Part shown: positions 2,752 through 13,999 of the stretch, in pieces
Position numbering within the stretch: the first letter of the stretch is position 1
How the letters are laid out: the number at the start of each line of letters is the position of its first letter
DNA from: Nostoc carneum NIES-2107
GTDB lineage: Bacteria > Cyanobacteriota > Cyanobacteriia > Cyanobacteriales > Nostocaceae
Reading direction: 5' to 3'
Assembly (NCBI GenBank): GCA_002368155.1
Contig: AP018180.1
Coordinates: forward strand, 2,934,899-2,998,898
DNA: 64,000 bases
Made by a program: the position numbers and the translations under genes
The notes under the pieces: model-generated
The model's database searches: none
Seen by the model: the letters and a program-made list of their open reading frames with translations, nothing else
What the model was told of the DNA's origin: nothing

Positions 2752-3558
2752 TTAATCCTCTTGTTCAACTGCGCTTTCGTGCCATTTACTTAAAATAAAG
2801 TCCGATAAAGCACTCAAGCTGACGAAAATTAACACACCCAACCCCGTAGTCAAGAATAATGCGGCGAACATTCGCGGAATTTGCAGGTTATAGCTGGAAA
2901 TGAGAATGCGATAGGCGATACCGGATTTTTCCCCGCCAGTTCCTGCGACAAATTCCGCCACAACTGCGCCAATTAAGGCTAACCCACCACTAATTTTTAA
3001 CCCACCTAAGAAGTATGGCATAGCGCTGGGTAAGCGCAAATACAGCAGGGTTTGCCAACGGGAGGCTTTGTAGAGTTGAAATAAGTTCAGTAAATTGCGG
3101 TCTACACTGTTGAGTCCCAAAGTAGTATTAGAGACGATGGGGAAAAAGGCGACAATCCAGGCGCAAACTACTAAGGCGGCGAAGGTATTGTTTTTGAACC
3201 AGAGAATAATTAAAGGTGCGATCGCAACTATGGGAGTTGTCTGTAAAATGACTGCATAGGGAAAGAAGCTGCGCTCAATCCATTTACTTTGGGTAAACAA
3301 TATCGCTATGATTAACCCGGAAATTGCAGCCGCAACAAAGGCGACAACTGTTATTTGTAGGGTAATTAATAAGGATGAGAATAACTCATTCCAATCACTA
3401 ATTAAGGTTTGAAATACTAAGATGGGGCCAGGGAGAATATAGGTTGGTAATTGTGTAATCCGCACGAATATATCCCACAATAGCAACGCGAAAATCCCCA
3501 CTAATACGGGTGCAAAAATATCAGGCGAGAGTGATTTGGGGCGACGTTTAAATAGCAT
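2752..3558 (-). CDS. ABC transporter permease, NMT1/taurine/nitrate family (BPD_transp_1)
   Basis: This 268-residue integral membrane protein has about six hydrophobic segments. The family's cytoplasmic EAA-type loop is recognisable around ASRWQTLLYLRLPSAMPYFLGGLKIS. Length and layout match the SsuC/TauC/NrtB/ThiX permeases. The ATPase (3822-4595) and the binding protein (5480-6544) of the same transporter type lie upstream on the same strand, so the three probably form one importer. A MITE-like repeat (3628-3710) now separates permease and ATPase. The substrate cannot be read from the permease; pyrimidines are favoured by the neighbouring URC genes. Its 3' end is next to the 21-bp minisatellite. 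Confidence 0.88.
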   Translation of the reverse strand: MLFKRRPKSLSPDIFAPVLVGIFALLLWDIFVRITQLPTYILPGPILVFQTLISDWNELFSSLLITLQITVVAFVAAAISGLIIAILFTQSKWIERSFFPYAVILQTTPIVAIAPLIILWFKNNTFAALVVCAWIVAFFPIVSNTTLGLNSVDRNLLNLFQLYKASRWQTLLYLRLPSAMPYFLGGLKISGGLALIGAVVAEFVAGTGGEKSGIAYRILISSYNLQIPRMFAALFLTTGLGVLIFVSLSALSDFILSKWHESAVEQED

Positions 3559-3627
3559 CCTTTTCTAAGTGGGTTTTGCAATTAAAGATAACTCGTTAGG
3601 GTTTTCATATGAAGCTGCATAGAATTC

Positions 3628-3710
3628 GATCCCCCCTAACCCCCCTTAATAAGGGGAGAACCGGAATAATTTATCAAAGTCCCCCTTTTTAAGGGGGATT
3701 TAGGGGGATC
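3628..3710. repeat. MITE-like inverted repeat
   Basis: The element begins GATCCCCCCTAACCCCCC and ends GGGGGATTTAGGGGGATC, so its ends are inverted copies of each other. Internal CCTTAATAAGGGG and CCCCCTTTTTAAGGGGG hairpins are also present. It has no coding capacity. It sits in the gap between the ABC ATPase and permease genes. Confidence 0.75.
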
Positions 3711-3821
3711 TAGATATTTGCAACTTCACATTAAATTGGTATTGGTCATTTGTCATTGGTAAAGGTTTTAGGTTTATTGATATTTCGTGATGCGGTTTAT
3801 TTCTTTGCCTTTTTTACTTAT

Positions 3822-4595
3822 TCAAAATGCCACCTTGGGGGAATAACTCATCGCTATTTCTAGAGATTGGGAAACCTGGCGACAATATTCGTTATACAAA
3901 GATGAAGTACGAAACTCCTCGCTACGGGGGTAAGGTGCAGCAATTTCAATATCTGCAATCATCCGTCCAGGGTTTGTCCCCATCACTACTACCCGATTTG
4001 ATAAATACACTGCTTCGTAAATATTATGAGTAACAAAAACCACTGTCCAATGGTGTTGATACCATAAATTTAGTAAGTCACTGTTAAGTTTACTACGGGT
4101 GATTTCATCTAAAGCCCCAAATGGTTCATCCATTAACAGAATATTTGGTTGCGTCACTAAAGCACGCGCAATTGATACCCGCATTTTCATTCCCCCAGAT
4201 AACTCACGGGGGTAACTACGCTCACATTTTTCTAATCCTACTAATGCTAATGTTTGCTGCACTAAACTATTAGTTTCTTTTTGAGAAATTCCCGCTAGTT
4301 TTAACGGTAGGCGGACATTTTCTTTCACATTTGCCCAAGGCATCAGTGCAGCATCTTGAAACACAAAGGCGAGTTTGCGTGCTTGGGGAGACAAACCCCA
4401 GTCAATAGTACCAGAACTGATGCGCCCTAGTCCGGCAATTAATTTGAGGACTGTACTTTTACCACACCCAGAAGGGCCGACGATGCTGATAAATTGTGAT
4501 TCTGGGATAGCTAAATTCAAGTCTTGCAGCGCCACTGTGCCATTGTTGTAGACTTTGCTAATGTGGCTGAGTTGAATAGCGGGAGGGTTATTCAT
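3822..4595 (-). CDS. ABC transporter ATP-binding protein (SsuB/TauB/NrtD type)
   Basis: Complete ABC ATPase: Walker A GPSGCGKST, Q-loop FVFQDAALMPWANV, signature LSGGMKMR, Walker B ILLMDEPFGALDE and switch histidine in VFVTHNIYEAV. The MPWANV and PFGALDE patterns are typical of the nitrate/sulfonate/taurine/HMP importer subfamily. I place the start at the ATG at 4593-4595 (MNNPPAIQLSHISKVY), because the conserved domain begins there; the frame is open to an upstream ATG at 4628. It energises the importer formed with the permease at 2752-3558 and the lipoprotein at 5480-6544. Confidence 0.9.
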   Translation of the reverse strand: MNNPPAIQLSHISKVYNNGTVALQDLNLAIPESQFISIVGPSGCGKSTVLKLIAGLGRISSGTIDWGLSPQARKLAFVFQDAALMPWANVKENVRLPLKLAGISQKETNSLVQQTLALVGLEKCERSYPRELSGGMKMRVSIARALVTQPNILLMDEPFGALDEITRSKLNSDLLNLWYQHHWTVVFVTHNIYEAVYLSNRVVVMGTNPGRMIADIEIAAPYPRSEEFRTSSLYNEYCRQVSQSLEIAMSYSPKVAF

Positions 4596-4842
4596 TAGAA
4601 ACAGGTAGAGAATAGCCTGCGATCGCATTAATTATGGTAAACCCTATCGCCACTCTCAAGCATTTCTCAACCTTGATTTTTCTTCTCTCTGCGCCTTCTG
4701 CGTCTCTGCGGTTGATTTACAATCACAAATTTATCCGCGTTTATCTGCGTTTATCCTCTTCCATTCCTGCGGAACGCTACGCGAACAGCGGTTAATTTTT
4801 TATTTCTGTACCTCACCAATATAAGAATCGCCATAACTTTAA

Positions 4843-5046
4843 TTAATCATCAGGAAATTGCCACGAAGAAATACTTTCAACATCTTGGCTATTGCATTGA
4901 GTACAAGTAGCATCAAATCTTGAATCCATCCATTCATACCCGCAAGCACGACAATGACAGAAAATATTGTTGCGGTTGGCATCTTTTAATCCTTGATACC
5001 ATTGCTGTAGTTCTTCAGCAGTTTTAAAAGGAGAATTATTAGACAT
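4843..5046 (-). CDS. Small zinc-ribbon protein, unknown function
   Basis: This 67-residue protein has two cysteine knuckles, CHCRACGYEW and CTQC. This is a C-x2-C ... C-x2-C arrangement expected to bind one zinc ion. The C-terminus is acidic (FPDD). A purine-rich AAAAGGAG-type stretch is encoded near its start. It lies between the ATPase gene and the binding-protein gene of the ABC importer, on the same strand. I do not recognise a named family. Rubredoxin-like zinc ribbons of this size are often accessory or regulatory proteins. Confidence 0.6.
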   Translation of the reverse strand: MSNNSPFKTAEELQQWYQGLKDANRNNIFCHCRACGYEWMDSRFDATCTQCNSQDVESISSWQFPDD

Positions 5047-5157
5047 TTACATCAGCCTTGACAACGAAGTAAGTCAGTAAAAATAAACCAAACTCTTACC
5101 AATGACAAATGACTAAGAACAAATGACATCCCTAGCCAATTATCTTTAACCCACCGC

Positions 5158-5421
5158 TCAAATTAAAGCATTATCAAAGCCAACAATTTGGCGATCGCCT
5201 CCTTGAGTATCATAGAACTCATAAGGCGGATAATCTGGCGAAGTAATCAATGTCAGCGTATCTTTGCCTACAGATGAAGCTGCATTCAGAGAATGGCTTT
5301 GACCTGTGATGATACTTATTACAACCATTGCTGCAAACAGCAAGGTTAATATTTTTCGTTTAGGGAATCGGTAATTGGTAATGGGTAATTGGTAATTGCA
5401 ATTTCTCTTTTGCTTCCTCAT
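5158..5421 (-). pseudogene. Truncated polar amino-acid ABC binding protein
   Basis: The frame encodes a hydrophobic signal peptide (RKILTLLFAAMVVISII ... LNA) followed by the start of a bacterial extracellular solute-binding protein family 3 domain: LTLITSPDYPPYEFYD, then IVGFD. It then stops after GFDNALI. The family is normally about 250 residues or more, so roughly 200 residues are missing. No continuation is visible downstream before the zinc-ribbon gene. The 5' side is filled with 7-bp repeats. I read this as a remnant of a glutamine/histidine-type binding protein gene. Confidence 0.75.
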
Positions 5422-5479
5422 CCCCCTCATCTCCCTCATCCTCCCAGTCCCCAGTCCCCAGTCCCCAATCCCCAATCCC
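5350..5479. repeat. STRR tract (GGTAATT / CCCCAGT / CCCCAAT heptamers)
   Basis: Runs of 7-bp repeats (GGTAATT, CCCTCAT, CCCCAGT, CCCCAAT) fill the space between the stop codon of the ABC binding protein and the signal-peptide part of the truncated gene, and overlap the latter's possible 5' end. Confidence 0.85.
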
Positions 5480-6544
5480 TCACGCTCTGTAATACTCTAC
5501 ACCTTTATTGACAAATCGCAGGGTAAATGCGTCTTGATACTTAACATTGGACTGAGTAATTCCAGACTGTACCATGTTGTCAAATACTAACTTCCATCTA
5601 GCCTCACTCATAGCACCAATTCCAAGTTTTTCTGCAGTATCAGAAATCACAATTCCATATTCTTTGAGTTTGGTAAGACTATAAGCTAACTGCTCATCTG
5701 TCATTTCTGGATTCGCTTTCTTGATTAAATCATTACCAGGTTGAGGATTTTCTAAGTAACTATACCAGCCCTTAATGGAGGCATCAACAAAGCGTGTCAC
5801 TAAGTCGGGATTTTTGTCTAAGAATTCTCTCTTGGTCTCAATTGTAGTTGCGTATGTGGGATAACCATAATCTGCTAGTAAAAACACTATCGGTTTAATA
5901 CCACCTTGCTTTTCAACCGCGAATGGTTCTGAAGTGATATACCCTTGTTGCGCTGAGGTTTTGTCAGCCAAAAAGGGAGCAGGATTGAAGTTGTAAGGGC
6001 GTTTTTGTGCGTCGGTAAAACCATACTTAGCTTTTAGCAGTGGCCAATAAGTAACGTTTGCAGCAGCAGATACATAAATCGGTTTGCCTTTGAGGTCGGC
6101 AAGGGTTTTAATTGCTGTGTTGGGATGGGTAATGATACATTGAGGGTCTTTTTGAAAAATTGCTGCTACGGTAATTTTGGGAATGCTTTGTGCTACTGCA
6201 TTGATAGCATCAATACCAAAACCCATGAAAAAATCTACTGCACCACCCATCAATAACTGGGTACCACTAGGTACTTGCGGGCCACCCATTTTAATGGTGA
6301 CATCAAGACCGTGGTTTTTGTAAATTCCAGTTGCGATCGCCTGATAAAATCCGCCGTGTTCTGCTTGTGCTAACCAATTTGTACCAAAGGTTACTTTATT
6401 TAACCCAGAAGGTGCAATTTTTTCAGAGTTGCTATTAGCACAGGCACTAATGATGCTACTACCTATACATAAAGAAGCATACTGAAGAAATTGGCGGCGA
6501 TTCAGGTTATCAAATGTTGCTGATGCGGATGGCGGCTGATTCAT
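5480..6544 (-). CDS. ABC substrate-binding Tat lipoprotein, NMT1/THI5-like
   Basis: This 354-residue protein has a twin-arginine signal (NRRQFLQYAS, residues ~15-24) followed by a lipobox ending in cysteine (SIISAC), so it is a Tat-exported lipoprotein. The mature part has the NMT1/THI5 fold (FGTNWLAQAEHGGFYQAIA near the start, GGAVDFFMGFG, SEPFAVEKQGG). Proteins with the NWLAQAEHGGFYQA motif are commonly annotated as binding components for hydroxymethylpyrimidine, pyrimidines or related compounds. The uracil-catabolism genes that follow divergently at 7343 make a pyrimidine ligand plausible. It works with the permease and ATPase downstream. Confidence 0.85.
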   Translation of the reverse strand: MNQPPSASATFDNLNRRQFLQYASLCIGSSIISACANSNSEKIAPSGLNKVTFGTNWLAQAEHGGFYQAIATGIYKNHGLDVTIKMGGPQVPSGTQLLMGGAVDFFMGFGIDAINAVAQSIPKITVAAIFQKDPQCIITHPNTAIKTLADLKGKPIYVSAAANVTYWPLLKAKYGFTDAQKRPYNFNPAPFLADKTSAQQGYITSEPFAVEKQGGIKPIVFLLADYGYPTYATTIETKREFLDKNPDLVTRFVDASIKGWYSYLENPQPGNDLIKKANPEMTDEQLAYSLTKLKEYGIVISDTAEKLGIGAMSEARWKLVFDNMVQSGITQSNVKYQDAFTLRFVNKGVEYYRA

Positions 6545-6578
6545 GGGATAAAATAAGGACTCTATTTACTGGGGTGTT

Positions 6579-7049
6579 TTAGCTGATTCTGAATGTACAT
6601 TCCAGAATTAACTTTTGGTTCACCAGTGAATAGGGTTGAATGGCTAAAGCACGCTGAAAAGCTTGAATTGCTTCAACATATTTGCCTAAAGCTGCATAAC
6701 ATAACCCCATACCGTGAAGTGCGCCAAAATGTACAGGATTGAGATTCACAACCATCTGACAATCTGCTAAGGACTTTTGATAATTACCCATGCTGTAGTA
6801 AAGAAAAGCACGACGATTCCAAGCTTCAGCAAAATCTGGTTGTTCGTTGATTAATCTTGTTAGCACTGTTTCAGCTTCAGTAGTTTCCCCAGCATCCAAT
6901 AATTTCTGGCTGTGGTCAATTTTCTCCAGCCCATAAATGCCTTTTTGCTGAAACCAGATGCGCCAGATTTTCTTAGTCGCTTGTTCCCGGACTGTAGCAT
7001 CTGAATTTTTCAAATCTTCAAGTAAAGAGCTGATAGATAAAGAATCCAT
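6579..7049 (-). CDS. TPR-repeat protein
   Basis: This 156-residue protein has an N-terminal helical segment (~50 residues) and about three tetratricopeptide repeats (AETVLTRLINEQPDFAEAWN, then YYSMGNYQKSLADCQMVVNL, then CYAALGKYVEAIQAFQRALA). There is no signal peptide, so it is likely cytoplasmic. It ends 34 bp upstream of the ABC binding-protein gene on the same strand, so it may be the first gene of that transcript. TPRs mediate protein contacts; the partner is unknown. Confidence 0.75.
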   Translation of the reverse strand: MDSLSISSLLEDLKNSDATVREQATKKIWRIWFQQKGIYGLEKIDHSQKLLDAGETTEAETVLTRLINEQPDFAEAWNRRAFLYYSMGNYQKSLADCQMVVNLNPVHFGALHGMGLCYAALGKYVEAIQAFQRALAIQPYSLVNQKLILECTFRIS

Positions 7050-7182
7050 AAATTCGGTCTAGGTAAATGTATGTATATATCAACTGTCGCACAAAAATCT
7101 CTACTTAAACATATTTAAAGTCATCTTTAAATTCTCTTAATTAGAGTTACAAATTTAACGTTTTCAGTGTTACATTTTTTAT

Positions 7183-7223
7183 GTATTCAGTAATACTATT
7201 GGTACTGGTTTTTAGCGTAAAAT
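7183..7223 (+). promoter_or_regulatory. Putative NtcA-activated promoter of the URC operon
   Basis: GTATTCAGTAATAC at 7183-7196 fits the NtcA consensus GTA-N8-TAC exactly. After 21 nt comes TAAAAT (7218-7223), which fits the -10 box TAN3T. This box-to--10 spacing is close to the 20-24 nt seen at nitrogen-regulated cyanobacterial class II promoters such as glnA. It lies about 120 bp before the URC1 start codon and faces the URC genes. The site is palindromic, so it could also affect the divergent TPR/ABC genes. Confidence 0.7.
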
Positions 7224-7342
7224 TTATAGATAATTAGTCATTAGGACATCATAAATTTAAAAATAGCAGCTGACTTTTGGTAGTTGACAAAACAAGTTAA
7301 CTAACAGTTGATAAAAACATCACAAAAAAAACCAAGTAATCT

Positions 7343-8602
7343 ATGCCAAAGCCAAATAGTGTTTCCAGGCATATTGTTCTCACATCCCATCCCAATAGTT
7401 TTGGCCCCAAACCTATCCCCATTCATTGGGGAGTAGCCGAGCCGATGGAACGTGGCCCGATTATCGCCACTTTGACCAAGCAAGCACACCGAAATGTGAT
7501 TGGCACCCATTCCGGTAGTTATGCTGTCTATCGTGCTTTAGCGGTGGCTAGCGGGGCTTTACAGTCAGATCATCGCGCCGATTTGACTAACACCTCGCCA
7601 GTTACCCATATTGGCCCCCATCCCAGTTGGGCTGATCCTGATAAAATTGTGTCCCTAGACCCCTTTGGGGCGGTAGCTAGTGAGGTGTTTGCTTCCTATT
7701 ACGCCCAAGGCTATGACATCCGCCCGACAATTGCGATTACTCAGGCTCATATTAATATGCCGGAACTGCAAGAAGCAGTTGATAAAGGGCGGTTGCGGGT
7801 GGATGGCAAAATCATGAAACCAGGTGGTGATTTGGTCGTTACCAAGGCGGCGATTGAACCAGTTTGGTATTTACCAGGAATTGCCAAGCGGTTTGGCATT
7901 AAAGAAACAGATTTACGCCGCGCTTTATTTGAACAAACTGGGGGGATGTTCCCAGAACTGGTAACACGTTCTGATTTGGAAGTCTTTTTACCACCGATTG
8001 GCGGTGTCACAGTTTACATTGTCGGTGATTTAGCTGCGATCGCAGATCCCAATAAACCGCTAGCTGTGCGGGTACATGATGAATGTAACGGTTCTGATGT
8101 CTTTGGTTCCGATATCTGTACCTGTCGCCCTTATTTAGTACATGGGATTGAAGTCTGCGTCCAAACTGCACAGGAAGGCGGTGTGGGTGTAATTGTTTAC
8201 TGTCGTAAAGAAGGACGTGCTTTAGGAGAAGTTACCAAATTCTTAGTTTACAATGCCAGGAAGCGACAAGAAGGAGGCGATCGCGCTGATGCTTACTTTG
8301 CCCGTACAGAATGCGTGGCGGGTGTGCAAGATATGCGCTTTCAAGAATTGATGCCCGATGTGTTGCATTGGTTGGGTATTACCCGTATCGACCGCATGGT
8401 GTCAATGAGTAATATGAAATACAACGCCATCACCCAAGCGGGGATTGAAATTGTCGAACGGGTACCCATCCCAGAAGATTTGATTCCTCAAGATGCACGG
8501 GTGGAAATTGAGGCGAAGAAGGCGGCTGGCTACTATACCACAGGTGATGTGTTAGATGCGGAAAGTTTAGGTGAGGTGAAAGGGCGAGATTTGGAAGGAT
8601 GA
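7343..8602 (+). CDS. URC1: GTP cyclohydrolase II-like uracil-catabolism protein URC1
   Basis: This 419-residue protein has a C-terminal half related to GTP cyclohydrolase II (RibA). The zinc motif C-x10-C-x-C is intact (C248, then GSDICTC with C259 and C261), and the YCRKEGRALG segment matches the family's RxEGRG loop. The N-terminal ~220 residues (HWGVAEPMERGP, GTHSGSYAVYRALAVA, THIGPHPSWADP) are not found in riboflavin RibA. They mark the URC1 subfamily, shown in the yeast Lachancea kluyveri to act in a uracil breakdown route that passes through UMP. It is followed by URC4 (8668) and upp (10,016), the expected companions. It is unlikely to be the riboflavin enzyme, since no ribB domain or rib genes are nearby. 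Confidence 0.88.
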   Translation: MPKPNSVSRHIVLTSHPNSFGPKPIPIHWGVAEPMERGPIIATLTKQAHRNVIGTHSGSYAVYRALAVASGALQSDHRADLTNTSPVTHIGPHPSWADPDKIVSLDPFGAVASEVFASYYAQGYDIRPTIAITQAHINMPELQEAVDKGRLRVDGKIMKPGGDLVVTKAAIEPVWYLPGIAKRFGIKETDLRRALFEQTGGMFPELVTRSDLEVFLPPIGGVTVYIVGDLAAIADPNKPLAVRVHDECNGSDVFGSDICTCRPYLVHGIEVCVQTAQEGGVGVIVYCRKEGRALGEVTKFLVYNARKRQEGGDRADAYFARTECVAGVQDMRFQELMPDVLHWLGITRIDRMVSMSNMKYNAITQAGIEIVERVPIPEDLIPQDARVEIEAKKAAGYYTTGDVLDAESLGEVKGRDLEG

Positions 8603-8612
8603 AGTATTAAGG

Positions 8613-8647
8613 ATGAAGTATGAAGGTGTTAAGTCTTGATACTTCAT
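8613..8647 (+). repeat. Hairpin between URC1 and URC4
   Basis: ATGAAGTAT (8613-8621) and ATACTTCAT (8639-8647) form a 9-bp perfect stem with a 17-nt loop. No U-run follows, so a strong terminator is unlikely; it may be an mRNA processing or stability element. Confidence 0.5.
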
Positions 8648-8654
8648 TCTTATG

Positions 8655-8670
8655 TAGGAGGTGAAGAGTG
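8655..8670 (+). promoter_or_regulatory. Ribosome binding site fixing the GTG start of URC4
   Basis: AGGAGG at 8655-8660 lies 7 nt before GTG at 8668-8670. This strong Shine-Dalgarno supports initiation at the GTG, although the first ~18 codons look repeat-derived. Confidence 0.7.
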
Positions 8671-9921
8671 GATAGACGAACCGCGAAGGCGCGAAGTACA
8701 CAAAGAGAAGAGGGGGAAGAAGAGATTGTGAGATATCTTCGTTCTCCGGAGGCGATTCGAGAAAGGTGTGGGCAATTATTTTCTTGGGTATGTGAGGGTA
8801 ACTCAAAGAATTTTGCTTGCGATTTGACGCAGTTGGGCAAAGTTGCGGATTATGTGATTGAGGTAATTCGCACAGAGTACCCAAATTTAGATATTCCGTT
8901 TCATAGCCGTTGGCGACATTTTGAAGTTGGAGGTGTAAGGCGAGTCGCGAATTTAGATCCTCAATTGGTGGGATTATCACCTGCGGATAAGGCGGCGGCT
9001 AAGTTTGATTTGGCGATTGTGAGTGTATTGTTAGATGCCGGTGCTGGGGATAAGTGGCATTATGATGAGCTGGAAACTGGCTTGAGGTTGGGGCGTTCGG
9101 AAGGCTTGGCTGTGGCTAGTTTCCGGATGTTTTGTGAAGGCAATTTTGCACTTAATAGCTTACCCCAGGCTGATGCTTATCGCTTACAAAGATTAACTGA
9201 GGTAGAATTAGCAACTGGTTTTCAAGTCAATGCGGAAAATCCCTTAGTGGGAATTACCGGAAGATTGAATTTATTACAAAAGTTAGGACAAGTCATAGTT
9301 ACTTTCCCCCATTTGTTTGGATATCACAATCCTCGTCCGGGGAATTTAGTTAATTATCTGTTGGGTAAGTCAGAAAATCGACAGTTAGCTGCTGCTACTG
9401 TATTAGATGCAATCCTAGAAGGGCTGAGTGATATTTGGCCGGGAAGATTAGAGATAGCTGGGGTAAATTTAGGTGATGTCTGGCAACATCCAGCAATTAA
9501 TGATGATGGATTAGTGCCTTTTCACAAATTATCTCAGTGGTTGACATATTCTTTATTAGAACCACTCCAAGAACTGGGTATAACAATTACTGGTTTAGAT
9601 CAACTCACTGGTTTACCAGAATATCGCAATGGGGGATTATGCGTTGATTTGGGACTTATTACTGTAAAAAACCCTGAGATTTTCTGTACTTCTCACTCCG
9701 TAGCATCAGAAATTATCGTTGAATGGCGCGCTTTGACGGTGATTCTTCTAGATTTGATTGCTACGACAGTGCGCGACAAGTTGGGTATGAGTAGCGAAGA
9801 ACTCCCATTAGTCAAAATCCTCCAAGGGGGAACTTGGACAGCCGGACGCAAAATTGCTGCTGAACTCAGAACAGGTGGGATACCCCCCATACAAATAGAA
9901 AGTGATGGCACGGTATTCTAG
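8668..9921 (+). CDS. URC4: DUF1688 uracil-catabolism protein URC4
   Basis: This 417-residue protein belongs to DUF1688, the URC4 family. The conserved start VRYLRSPEAIRERCGQLF and the block LDIPFHSRWRHFEVGGV are clear, as are GRSEGLAVASFRMF and GDVWQH further on. URC4 is required with URC1 and uracil phosphoribosyltransferase for the URC uracil-degradation pathway in yeast; its reaction is not settled. Translation probably starts at GTG 8668, given the AGGAGG just before it. The first ~18 residues (DRRTAKARSTQREEGEEE) are encoded by a dispersed GCGAAGGCGCGAAG-type repeat and are not part of the family. The gene is 65 bp after URC1 and precedes upp on the same strand. Confidence 0.88.
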   Translation: MDRRTAKARSTQREEGEEEIVRYLRSPEAIRERCGQLFSWVCEGNSKNFACDLTQLGKVADYVIEVIRTEYPNLDIPFHSRWRHFEVGGVRRVANLDPQLVGLSPADKAAAKFDLAIVSVLLDAGAGDKWHYDELETGLRLGRSEGLAVASFRMFCEGNFALNSLPQADAYRLQRLTEVELATGFQVNAENPLVGITGRLNLLQKLGQVIVTFPHLFGYHNPRPGNLVNYLLGKSENRQLAAATVLDAILEGLSDIWPGRLEIAGVNLGDVWQHPAINDDGLVPFHKLSQWLTYSLLEPLQELGITITGLDQLTGLPEYRNGGLCVDLGLITVKNPEIFCTSHSVASEIIVEWRALTVILLDLIATTVRDKLGMSSEELPLVKILQGGTWTAGRKIAAELRTGGIPPIQIESDGTVF

Positions 9922-10015
9922 GGGACTGGGGATTGGGGAGAAGGGGACAAGGGGACAAGGAGATAAATTCCCATTACCAATTACCAATTACCCATTACCA
10001 AACACCAAATGACAA
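9922..10015. repeat. STRR tract before upp
   Basis: GGGGACTGGGGATT units, then ATTACCA and finally AAATGAC heptamers fill the URC4-upp gap. The last AAATGAC copy supplies the ATG of upp. Confidence 0.85.
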
Positions 10016-10651
10016 ATGACAAATCAAGTTACTTTAATTGAACATCCATTGATTCAGCACAAGCTAACGCTAATGCGTCGGGCGGAGACGAGTACAACGA
10101 AATTTCGGAATCTCGTTAAAGAAGTTAGTTTGTTATTGGCTTATGAGGTAACGCGGGATTTACCTGTGAAATACGAAGAGATTCAAACACCTCTCGCCGC
10201 TATGAATGCGCCTGTGCTTGCGCCGGATAAAAAGCTGGTGTTAGTTTCCATTATGCGGGCGGGACAGGGTATTTTAGATGGGATGTTGGAGTTAATTCCT
10301 TCAGCTAGGGTGGGACACGTGGGTTTATATCGTGACCCGAAAACGCTGATTCCTGTAGAGTATTATTTTAAGGTTCCCCATGATGTCGAACACCGAGACA
10401 TGATTGTTGTCGATCCGATGTTAGCAACGGGTAATTCGGCGGTGGCGGCGGTGGAAAGGTTGAAATCTACTAATCCGTTATCGATTAAGTTTGTCTGCTT
10501 ACTAGCTGCACCGGAAGGGATTAAGCATTTCTGTGAGGTACATCCAGATGTGCCTTTATATACGGCTGCTATTGATGACTATTTGGATGAACATGGCTAT
10601 ATTATCCCCGGTTTAGGAGATGCAGGCGATCGCTTGTTTGGCACAAAATAA
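10016..10651 (+). CDS. upp: Uracil phosphoribosyltransferase
   Basis: This 211-residue protein is full length for UPRT. It converts uracil and PRPP to UMP and pyrophosphate in the cytoplasm. The N-terminus ([15 protein letters not shown]) and the PRPP loop ([12 protein letters not shown]) are typical. The C-terminal uracil-binding segment [12 protein letters not shown] is intact. It is the third gene of the URC1-URC4-upp run. In the yeast URC pathway the same enzyme forms the UMP needed for catabolism, so here it may serve both salvage and breakdown. The start ATG lies in a 7-bp repeat (AAATGAC)n. Alternative ATGs in that repeat are out of frame, and no separate Shine-Dalgarno is obvious. Confidence 0.95.
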
Positions 10652-10677
10652 AGAAAATGCCCCATGCCCAATAACAA

Positions 10678-11613
10678 TTAATCTGAATGGCGATTTTCTC
10701 CAAAGTAAGCAGTACCTAGGGCTTTAGGCGGTGTCGATTTCCCGGCTAATCCTACCAATGCGAATAAAGCGATCGCATAAGGTAGCATGACTAAAAATTG
10801 GTAAGGTATATTTGCCCCTAAGGCTTGAATTCGCAGTTGCAAAGCTTCCGTAGCGCCAAATAGCAAACAAGCTAAAGCACTACCTACAGGATGCCATCTG
10901 CCAAAGATTAAAGCCGCGATCGCAATAAATCCTTTACCTGCACTCATTCCCTCGGCAAAAAATCTCACCTGTACTAAGGTTAAATAAGCACCTCCCAAAC
11001 TAGCAAGACAACCGCTGATAACTACAGCTAGGTAACGTACCCTAGGAACCGAAATTCCAGCCGTGTCAGCAGCTTGCGGCGATTCACCCACAGCCCGCAA
11101 TGTAAGCCCAAAGCTGGTTTGAAATAATATATATGTTGTGAAAATAACTAATATTAATAGTAAATATACTAAAATATCTTGCTGAAATAACAACTTCCCA
11201 ATCACGGGAAGATTCGCCAAACTAGGAGTAATTATTGCCCCAATTCCTGGTAATTGTTGTGTACTACCACCAAATACCAACCTTCCCAGAAATGATGTTA
11301 ACCCAGCGGTGACAAGATTAATCGCTAGTCCAGAGACTAATTGATCAATCCGCAAAGTTACACATAAAAAGGCGTGGAGTAACCCTACCAATCCGCCAGC
11401 AATCAAAGCTGCTATGACACCCAGCCAAGGATTTCCACTGTAGAAAGTAGCAACAGCGCTTGTAAAAGCCCCAGTCAATAACATACCTTCTAAGGCGATA
11501 TTTAACACTCCCGAACGTTCCGAATACAATCCCCCTAAAGCAGCAAATCCCAAGGGTACAGCTAGGCGCAATGTTGCTACCAAGTAATCAGAGAAAAAAT
11601 TGAGATTATTCAT
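10678..11613 (-). CDS. Nucleoside-type ABC transporter permease (YufQ/NupC-like)
   Basis: This 311-residue permease of the branched-chain/ribose superfamily has about eight to nine hydrophobic segments. It begins LRLAVPLGFAALGGLYSERSGVLNIALEGMLL, the signature of the second permease in BmpA-type nucleoside importers; AVGESPQAADTAGISV is the conserved cytoplasmic loop. It is paired with the first permease (11,679-12,728) on the same strand, 65 bp apart. The matching ATPase and BmpA-like binding protein are not in the window. Known relatives import nucleosides, which fits the adjoining upp and URC genes. Confidence 0.85.
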   Translation of the reverse strand: MNNLNFFSDYLVATLRLAVPLGFAALGGLYSERSGVLNIALEGMLLTGAFTSAVATFYSGNPWLGVIAALIAGGLVGLLHAFLCVTLRIDQLVSGLAINLVTAGLTSFLGRLVFGGSTQQLPGIGAIITPSLANLPVIGKLLFQQDILVYLLLILVIFTTYILFQTSFGLTLRAVGESPQAADTAGISVPRVRYLAVVISGCLASLGGAYLTLVQVRFFAEGMSAGKGFIAIAALIFGRWHPVGSALACLLFGATEALQLRIQALGANIPYQFLVMLPYAIALFALVGLAGKSTPPKALGTAYFGENRHSD

Positions 11614-11678: not shown

Positions 11679-12728
11679 TTACTCTGCGTTAACCTTGGCG
11701 TGACTCTGCGTTTTTACTCTGATTGCTCTTTCCACTGCCAAACTAATAGCAATAAACAATACCGCTAAACCCTGAATCGCGTATACCACAGTTACTGGCA
11801 CACCTGCACTACGCTGCATCACATTCGCACCACTACGCAGCGCCGCAAAAAATAGCGAAGTTAACACTACACCGACCACACTACCACGACTGAGAAATGC
11901 GATCGCAATGGCATCAAATCCATAACCTGGTGAAACTTGTTCAAATAAACGATATTTTAATCCCATTACTTCACAACTACCAGCTAAACCCGCTAAACCT
12001 CCCGCTAACGCCATTACCAGCATAATGGTACGTTCTACCAACATTTGAGCATAACGAGCGGCGATGGGGTTAAATCCCACGGCGGTGATTTGGTATCCTA
12101 AAGGCGATCGCCCTAACAACACCCACAATATCCCAGCAGCAAGTAAAGCTAATAAAATCCCAGCATGGGCGAGGCTTTGTGGTAGTATAATCGTTAGGCG
12201 GGCGGTCTTGGCTATTAAGGGCGAGTAAGGACTAGGCGCGCCTGGTGCCATTAAAGGATTCTGTACGAGGTAACTAACTAAATTCACAGCAATGTAATTT
12301 AGCAATAACGTAGTGATTACCTCATTTACTCCCCGTAAAGCTTTGAGATAACCAGGAATCCAACCCCAAACCGCACCAAACAGAAATCCGGCGAACAGTG
12401 CTAAAGGGATATGAATGACAGCAGGTAATCCCCGCACGTATAAGCCTATTAAAGTACTTCCCAACGCACCTAAGTAAATTTGTCCTTCGCCACCGATATT
12501 AAATTGCCCAGCCCGTAATGCTACTAATACCCCCAAGCTGGTGAACAATAGCGGTGTCATTTTGGTGAGGGTGTTACCAAAACCAAAGTAGCTGGAAAGA
12601 GATTCTTGAAATAAAGCTGTGTATGCGGTGAGGGGATTTGCCCCAGCTAGGAGGATGAGGATAGCACCAACGAGTAGAGCAGATGTAATAGCAATTAGCG
12701 GTGATAGGATTGGGAACAGAAATTTCAT
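11679..12728 (-). CDS. Nucleoside-type ABC transporter permease (YufP/NupB-like)
   Basis: This membrane protein of about 349 residues belongs to the same superfamily. It shows TLTKMTPLLFTSLGVLVALRAGQFNIGGEGQI and the loop TAVGFNPIAARYAQM, typical of the first permease of BmpA-dependent nucleoside importers. I place the start at ATG 12,726-12,728 (MKFLFPILSPL), because the frame upstream to 12,812 is not conserved-looking. It is upstream of the second permease. A small GCGTTAACC-type repeat lies in the gap between the two (11,640-11,700). It probably forms a heterodimeric channel with the second permease. Confidence 0.85.
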   Translation of the reverse strand: MKFLFPILSPLIAITSALLVGAILILLAGANPLTAYTALFQESLSSYFGFGNTLTKMTPLLFTSLGVLVALRAGQFNIGGEGQIYLGALGSTLIGLYVRGLPAVIHIPLALFAGFLFGAVWGWIPGYLKALRGVNEVITTLLLNYIAVNLVSYLVQNPLMAPGAPSPYSPLIAKTARLTIILPQSLAHAGILLALLAAGILWVLLGRSPLGYQITAVGFNPIAARYAQMLVERTIMLVMALAGGLAGLAGSCEVMGLKYRLFEQVSPGYGFDAIAIAFLSRGSVVGVVLTSLFFAALRSGANVMQRSAGVPVTVVYAIQGLAVLFIAISLAVERAIRVKTQSHAKVNAE

Positions 12729-13027
12729 GCGATTATTTGCGATCGTTTTGTCATCTTTGCCAACCCTCAGCCTCAGAAATGAGTATAAAATAATATCTCG
12801 ATTAGAAACCATGAAAAAACTTTTGCTATGAATACCTCAACAGCGAAGTTTTGCCATGACTAGCAATACTATTCCTCACAATGATATTGGCTTAAACCTC
12901 TACAGAATTACTACTAGGAAGCATTGATTTTAGCTGTGCAATTGATTTAGTGTATCAGGTTATAACTTTTGAGCGTCAAGATTAGTGAGACACAGCTATT
13001 GTCTATTATGACTGTAGGACAATTAAA

Positions 13028-13223: not shown

Positions 13224-13790
13224 TTATACCTCTATAATTTTGTTCCAAATCTCATTGTTATAAACAATAGGCTGTTGATTAATAATGCGTTCAGCAACAA
13301 AAATGGGATATGAGCTAGAGTTATCATAGATCATCCAACCATCACACAAAGGTAAATATAAAGAAATCAAATTTTTTTGACCCTGTTGGTAGCGTCTACG
13401 AATGACATTTTCTGGAATCGAGTGTCCACCACTAGCAACCCTAGCTGCTACTCGTTCTATAGCTAGTTCAATGCTTTGTAACCAAAAGTATATTAAGTTA
13501 ATTGTGTAGCCTTTTGCTTTACAAGCATTCACAAAAGGTACAAAAGTTCTAGCCGCTAAGGTAGTTTCAAAAGCAAAATCGCTACCTGAATTAGATAAAG
13601 TTCGTAGTCGCATAATCATTAATCTTCCTGCTTCTATAGCCATTGAATCTGGATTTAATGGAGATAGTCCAGCAGCAATAGCATCTGCATTTACGTACTC
13701 AAAGCAGTTTAGAAAATTCGGCAACAAATTCATTGCAACAGTAGTTTTTCCTGAACCATTTGCACCCCCAATAATGTAAAGACTTGGCAT
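13224..13790 (-). CDS. Zeta-toxin-like P-loop kinase
   Basis: This protein of about 188 residues starts at ATG 13,788-13,790 (MPSLYIIGGANGSGKTT), directly at its Walker A motif; the open frame extends to 13,847. It has the zeta-toxin hallmarks: GANGSGKTT, YVNADAIAAGLSP, the substrate region FAFETTLAARTF and RVASGGHSIPENVIRRRY. Zeta toxins phosphorylate UDP-N-acetylglucosamine and block cell-wall synthesis. Chromosomal cyanobacterial relatives are common and their targets are mostly untested. It is co-transcribed with the small gene at 13,028-13,222. Toxin-first order is unusual for epsilon/zeta. Confidence 0.8.
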   Translation of the reverse strand: MPSLYIIGGANGSGKTTVAMNLLPNFLNCFEYVNADAIAAGLSPLNPDSMAIEAGRLMIMRLRTLSNSGSDFAFETTLAARTFVPFVNACKAKGYTINLIYFWLQSIELAIERVAARVASGGHSIPENVIRRRYQQGQKNLISLYLPLCDGWMIYDNSSSYPIFVAERIINQQPIVYNNEIWNKIIEV

Positions 13791-13999
13791 ACCAATACTC
13801 TCTCTTTGCTGCACCTTCTGGTTCAGAGATGGCTCTATTATTATCAACCATCAATCAGCCAATATTTTTTCTGTGCTATATCCATAAATAGTGACAAATC
13901 TATCACTATGATTACAGCGTAAACAAAACTATTTATTATAGAATTTTTACATATCTTTAAAGTTATCTATTAATCCTAATATTATCCCAAATCATGCTA

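Follow-up and report, generated by a model that had tools for sequence, protein, structure and literature searches.

The window analysed here, a stretch of 64,000 nucleotides from Nostoc carneum NIES-2107, carries three complete open reading frames on its forward strand: URC1 (7343–8602, 419 amino acids), URC4 (8668–9921, 417 amino acids, GTG start) and upp (10016–10651, 211 amino acids). A sequence-only reading had described them as a complete and consecutive URC set at 7343–10651, and this is borne out by open reading frames and family profiles. URC is one among the known pyrimidine breakdown routes. The flanking genes considered here lie on the reverse strand and comprise a small TPR protein divergent from URC1 (6579–7049) and components of two ABC transporters. 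The host genome has a size of 9.36 Mb. The nearest named relative among those fetched is Nostoc linckia FACHB-104, and its URC4 is 97% identical.

URC1 belongs to the GTP cyclohydrolase II superfamily and is of the UTP cyclohydrolase type. It contains the Pfam domains GTP_CH_N (298.6 bits) and GTP_cyclohydro2 (65.3 bits), which together make up a full-length two-domain protein. The profile search that had been proposed for it gives 777 bits against the NCBIfam model PRK07198 (cut-off 403), a model whose own description is 'GTP cyclohydrolase II'. Against six RibA/RibBA NCBIfam models URC1 reaches 48–67 bits, all far under the cut-offs, including 60.1 bits for TIGR00505 (cut-off 205.85) and 66.6 for PRK00393 (cut-off 148); by these scores it is not a RibA. 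The intact C-x10-C-x-C zinc-binding site that had been noted is formed by C248, C259 and C261, and this triad is invariant across 50 aligned URC1 proteins (alignment A5, with 49 of 67 URC1 rows and the window's protein). A profile built from 18 URC1 sequences finds the PDB entries 7eev and 7ej3 (E 2.3e-207, profile positions 8–420 of 421), and a structure search gives 70–71% identity across 393–399 alignment columns. The entry titles read UTP cyclohydrolase and the PDB molecule field GTP cyclohydrolase II; the 'UTP' label thus derives from the entry titles and the reference titles. The AlphaFold model of URC1 is poor (pLDDT 66.7) and served only for the titles and identities of PDB matches. 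The accessible part of PMC12507026 cites a 2021 ACS Catalysis paper on UTP cyclohydrolase (Zhang 2021) as a URC-pathway reference, with Andersen 2008 also in its reference list. UTP is more likely than UMP to be the ring-opening substrate of URC1, since UTP cyclohydrolase is the title given to its nearest homologue of solved structure, with 70% identity. The earlier description of the route as running 'via UMP' is therefore doubtful and is better put as 'via uridine nucleotides, probably UTP'.

URC4 was expected to match DUF1688, and it does so over the full length of the Pfam profile (510 bits, E 5.7e-153, positions 1–420 of 420), which places it in the URC4/urg3 family. At the sequence level, URC4 has no useful match in the PDB (best E 0.31). 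A Foldseek search with a model based on alignment A3 (comprising the window's protein and those of 71 of the 80 fetched loci; L055, L079, L083, L089, L101, L103, L106, L120 and L123 left out) links the predicted fold, near full-length, to the queuosine salvage enzyme Qng1/DUF2419. Ranked by Z, the structural neighbours of the model are Qng1 first and DNA glycosylases next; the VIA list re-examines the matches of Foldseek itself. DNA glycosylases and Qng1 are enzymes acting on N-glycosidic bonds, and Qng1, to judge from its PDB titles, is probably an N-glycosidase. The identity between URC4 and Qng1 is 15–18%. K199 and D231 of Qng1, presumably catalytic to judge from the PDB titles of mutant entries, align with K287 and E318 of URC4, with Glu in place of Asp, and K287 and E318 form its putative active site. 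Of three URC4 proteins scanned with Pfam Q_salvage, those of the window and of genome G030 gave no match at E<=10, and that of Azospirillum gave 14.1 bits (E 0.035), under the cut-off of 25. As this cut-off is not reached, URC4 is a distant relative of Q_salvage by fold and no member of the family. Qng1 has been solved with queuosine-5'-monophosphate. URC4 shares its fold but belongs to another Pfam family, and its expected substrate is a small ureido riboside, whereas that of Qng1 is a 7-deazaguanine. The fold match points to an N-glycosidase. The reaction of URC4 had been called unsettled; a metabolic-model paper on Lachancea kluyveri (PMC7530994, in its accessible part) already gives URC4 the step from ribosylurea to urea. 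Among the matches listed for the open-access literature, no publication joins DUF1688/URC4 with DUF2419/Qng1, and no structural basis for the URC4 step was found in that literature.

The genomic context was compared in the best 80 of 563 confirmed relatives, 79 of them cyanobacteria by title, with some contigs ending near the gene and with open reading frames of at least 90 amino acids. URC1 directly precedes URC4 on one strand in 53 of these 80 loci, and the triplet with upp is found in 42; the adjacency is therefore not due to chance. In the same sample, URC1 is present near URC4 in 67 loci, upp in 58, a relative of the TPR protein in 33, a BPD_transp_2 permease in 16, an NMT1-type binding protein in 15 and a complete four-part BMP-type set in 10. 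Rarer neighbours are a PF04115-type gene (12), a cytosine deaminase-like gene (5), labelled from one member that matches solved cytosine deaminases with E 6.6e-35, and an NCS1 permease (3). Three plasmid records, from Azospirillum, Gordonia and Pseudoroseomonas, have the same order URC1-URC4-upp, and the name URC4/urg3 is already used in 9 of the 13 matching plasmid records; the bacterial version is thus less obscure than the 'poorly studied' system of the earlier account. The Azospirillum brasilense plasmid NZ_CP059453.1 (255256–264559) encodes GCHII, URC4/urg3, upp, a BMP protein, an ATPase, two permeases and an amidohydrolase. Unlike the Nostoc locus, all these genes lie on one strand and the transporter is complete inside the operon. 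The same three families, a GCHII-like URC1/urg1, a DUF1688 URC4/urg3 and a uracil phosphoribosyltransferase, are represented by URC1, URC4 and URC6 of L. kluyveri and by urg1-3 of Schizosaccharomyces pombe, according to the accessible parts of PMC2174524, PMC3869809 and PMC7530994. Unlike the yeasts, Nostoc has a prokaryotic operon, ABC transporters nearby and a dedicated second upp. The three-gene set is a real, intact URC operon of a type already known, and the URC assignment and the gene order stand.

Families, synteny, co-occurrence and the fold match are established by computation. A single draw from the phylum, 292 genomes in all, includes 25 with URC4. URC1 (E<=1e-100) is present in 24 genomes, each of which is among these 25, and none of the remaining 267 has it. 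The exception is G039, where URC1 appears as short open reading frames only and URC4 contains a stop. Co-occurrence persists when the genes are unlinked, as in G177, where a 3.05 Mb contig carries one gene at 0.24 Mb and the other at 2.69 Mb. Urease alpha was found in 123 of the 292 genomes, among them every one of the 25 with URC4. Within the class the enrichment with URC4 has p 0.02, which is weak because 121 of 139 genomes of the class, as read from the table, carry urease, and Fisher p values overstate the evidence as the genomes are related.

The third gene had been read as upp, and the equivalog model TIGR01091 agrees with 267.4 bits (cut-off 208.35). It is the second of two upp paralogues in this genome, which are 40% identical. 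At E<=1e-50, upp is present in 248 of the 292 genomes of the phylum. Two copies, as counted by eye from the match column, are carried by 21 of the 25 URC4 genomes (not by G039, G062, G195 and G203) and by 0 of the 267 others, where 223 have one copy and 44 have none. In a tree, a branch with support 100/99 separates the URC-type proteins (20 fetched and the window's own), linked or unlinked, from nine housekeeping-type rows, the remaining 11 of 20 such rows having been dropped by a motif filter. The tree with all rows, in which the G016 row is faulty, shows the same split. Judged from tree and distribution, the gene is a URC-dedicated (private) uracil phosphoribosyltransferase.

Upstream of the operon, an NMT1-type ABC system comprises an NMT1/THI5-like solute-binding protein (5480–6544, reverse strand, identified by Pfam), an ATPase (3822–4628, reverse strand) and a permease (2752–3558, reverse strand), the latter two assigned by profiles with all NCBIfam models shown under cut-off. 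It had been called pyrimidine-type. The nearest named solved relatives of its binding protein bind or make thiamine-precursor pyrimidines, not uracil. Downstream lie two BPD_transp_2 permeases (Pfam), called NupQ-like (10678–11613, reverse strand) and NupP-like (11679–12812, reverse strand); the longest open reading frame of the second extends to 12812 and not to 12,728 as first given. Their substrate class is putative, and a Bmp/PnrA-like binding protein is linked to them in relatives. The label 'nucleoside-type' finds no backing in NCBIfam, where the models closest to each permease are subunits of a 'putative B6 ABC transporter' and score under cut-offs. Self-contained uptake had also been claimed. 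It is true only in part: the NMT1-type system has a binding protein, an ATPase and a permease at 2752–6544, but the second transporter is an incomplete BMP-type set of two permeases with no binding protein or ATPase at the locus. A self-contained second transporter is ruled out, its likely ATPase and Bmp protein being encoded elsewhere in the genome. At about 1.65–1.66 Mb lies an ATPase that shares 80% identity with its linked counterpart in the relative G030, and at 2.26 Mb a Bmp binding protein (73% identity); by this resemblance they are likely partners of the window's permeases. DoxX-like and PF04115-type genes adjoin the remote ATPase. In the relative L056, the trio, the permeases and the ATPase, DoxX-like, PF04115-type and Bmp genes are all together.

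Between the TPR gene and URC1, the forward strand contains an NtcA-type site, GTATTCAGTAATAC, at 7183–7196, followed after 21 nucleotides by a TAN3T -10 box, TAAAAT, at 7218–7223. According to the accessible part of PMC3898017, NtcA-activated promoters combine GTAN8TAC with a TAN3T -10 box 20–24 nucleotides downstream, and the putative promoter of URC1 has this canonical layout. Among the 66 of 67 URC1 loci with 320 bp upstream (one was too short), GTAN8TAC occurs in 26 (shuffles: mean 5.9, maximum 12) and is joined by a correctly spaced -10 box in 13 (shuffles: mean 0.84, maximum 4), counts that are not independent because the loci are related. The site is present in 24 of 32 TPR-flanked loci versus 2 of 34 other loci. 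When 29 upstream regions are aligned (L055, L101, L103 and L123 left out), only the 14-mer block at 7302 (0.79) is better conserved than the site (0.77, median 0.60). Weighing against the site, the 64 kb window contains 19 occurrences of GTAN8TAC and 3 of the full layout, of which one falls within a gene. Scans of 6500–10750 gave 7 sigma-70 promoters (shuffle mean 9.0) and 2 terminators (shuffle mean 3.8), with no excess in either case. From this motif evidence, NtcA probably switches on the operon under nitrogen shortage.

Of the earlier interpretation, the gene identities, their order and the URC assignment have been retained, while the UMP route, the self-contained locus and the obscurity of the bacterial set have not. 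The reading that we consider probable is a nitrogen-scavenging URC operon, for which we infer every reaction, every transport substrate and the regulation. The ABC transporters would import pyrimidines or nucleosides, and the dedicated uracil phosphoribosyltransferase, by its family, would yield UMP. Cellular kinases convert UMP to UTP, and this conversion would feed URC1. URC1, if the name of its homologue is a guide to the substrate, would open the uracil ring of UTP by two Zn-dependent hydrolyses, with a ribosylurea phosphate and an aldehyde acid of three carbons (C3) as products. The Qng1-like URC4, judging from its fold and aligned active-site positions, would cleave ribosylurea-5'-phosphate hydrolytically at its C1'-N bond, yielding urea and ribose-5-phosphate. 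Urease, encoded elsewhere, would then liberate ammonia from the urea, and NtcA, to judge from its site, probably activates the operon at low nitrogen. For nitrogen release the Nostoc genome has urease, whereas L. kluyveri uses urea amidolyase (PMC7530994, accessible part). Counting against the scheme are the low identity of URC4 to Qng1, its Glu where Qng1 has Asp, the two URC4 proteins without a Q_salvage match, the molecule name of 7eev/7ej3, the lack of an NtcA-type site in 8 of 32 TPR-flanked and 32 of 34 other loci, and the weak urease enrichment.

Other explanations can be weighed against this scheme. URC4 might act differently on ribosylurea or its phosphate, e.g., as an amidohydrolase that attacks the carbonyl of the ureido group and yields ammonia and a ribosyl carbamate, with the Qng1 fold recruited for the purpose. 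The same fold is no proof of the same reaction, and the Asp of Qng1 is replaced by Glu; the N-glycosidic-bond enzymes that lead its structural neighbours and the urease of all 25 URC4 genomes, consistent with a urea product, make this improbable. A very unlikely variant is that the PF04115 ureidoglycolate-lyase-like protein is the true urea-releasing enzyme and that URC4 works upstream of it. Such a gene is found at 12 of the 80 loci, and the Nostoc genome has one at a distance of 2.3 kb from its transporter ATPase at 1.65 Mb; at the other 68 loci, considering the loci only, it was not found, whereas URC4 is accompanied by URC1 in 24 of 25 genomes.

Two further explanations concern the operon as a whole. 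The trio could regulate the pyrimidine nucleotide pool or clear surplus or damaged uridine nucleotides instead of supplying nitrogen. UTP, the probable substrate of URC1, is a central metabolite, and in the accessible part of PMC2174524 the S. pombe urg genes are uracil-responsive and a urg1 deletion grows like the wild type with or without uracil. The linked ABC transporters, the cytosine deaminase-like genes and the NtcA-type site point instead to uptake and nitrogen use, and such a role seems quite unlikely. It is hardly credible that URC1 is a GTP cyclohydrolase II of the riboflavin pathway and that the cluster is a riboflavin fragment. The GTP_cyclohydro2 domain and the Cys triad of the Zn site are common to URC1 and RibA, but the genome has a separate RibBA that scores 252 bits to this domain versus 67 for URC1 and shares 31% identity with URC1 across 151 columns. 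With this protein, the profile scores and the identity to UTP cyclohydrolase, RibA was ruled out.

For the URC4 family, a more far-reaching view is one that we regard as fairly likely. URC4/DUF1688 would be a second branch of the Qng1-type nucleotide N-glycosidase superfamily, with a DNA-glycosylase-related fold, which releases urea from ribosylurea-5'-phosphate by means of a Lys/Glu pair (K287, E318), is accompanied by a private upp in cyanobacteria and is NtcA-controlled in some lineages. Its predicted fold matches, over nearly the whole length, that of an enzyme solved with a nucleoside 5'-monophosphate, and with the candidate active-site residues a single protein and a single substrate would suffice to test the reaction of URC4. 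URC4 thereby gains a concrete predicted role, the release of urea as a nitrogen source, and the interest of the operon lies in this testable role, the private upp paralogue and the predicted NtcA switch. If true, the Lys/Glu N-glycosidase reading would settle the chemistry of URC4 in bacteria and fungi, and it is predicted that RNA bases are an NtcA-controlled nitrogen source for some cyanobacterial lineages.

The most conserved 14-mer upstream of URC1 across 29 aligned loci lies at 7302-7315, where the window copy reads TAACAGTTGATAAA and the consensus is TAATAATTGATAAA.

Among the best 80 of 563 confirmed relatives, additional genes accompany the URC cluster. A guanylate/adenylate cyclase-domain gene was detected close to URC4 in 8 of these 80 loci, in Microcoleus-like genomes, at L041:10244-11326 and the cluster 14 loci, and it is mostly positioned between URC1 and URC4. 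An FAD_binding_4 protein (cluster 7; L058:2000-3346) is encoded close to URC1 in 15 of the 80, and none was seen within the annotated part of the window. The cluster is decaying at L054:8949-12183 and at L123, where URC1 consists of short ORFs only and URC4 is broken in two. Genome G213 (locus L026) carries, directly upstream of its full URC4, an extra DUF1688 piece of 41 residues (G213:C6:78164-78286; E 3.4e-5).

Several features were also found near the window transporters. A small P-loop protein resembling Zeta-toxin/AAA_33 (13224-13847, minus strand; Pfam PF06414, 49 bits) adjoins the BPD_transp_2 permeases. The ORF at 2400-2798 contains a tandem array (2494-2722) of about 11 copies of a 21-bp unit, which translates as FNPEHSHF-type repeats. 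Between the genes for the ABC ATPase and the NMT1-type binding protein sits a family-3 solute-binding protein of which just the beginning is left (5158-5475, minus strand; PF00497, E 0.015, below the cut-off), and this piece contains 7-bp repeats.

Of 292 genomes sampled across the phylum, 5 encode true Qng1/Q_salvage, the queuosine salvage enzyme (loci L141-L146). All 5 belong to classes other than that of the window, and in the same survey the enzyme is absent from the window's own genome. URC1-URC4-upp was also found in a MAG labelled Alphaproteobacteria (locus L132; URC4 identity 57%), reflecting either transfer or mis-binning.
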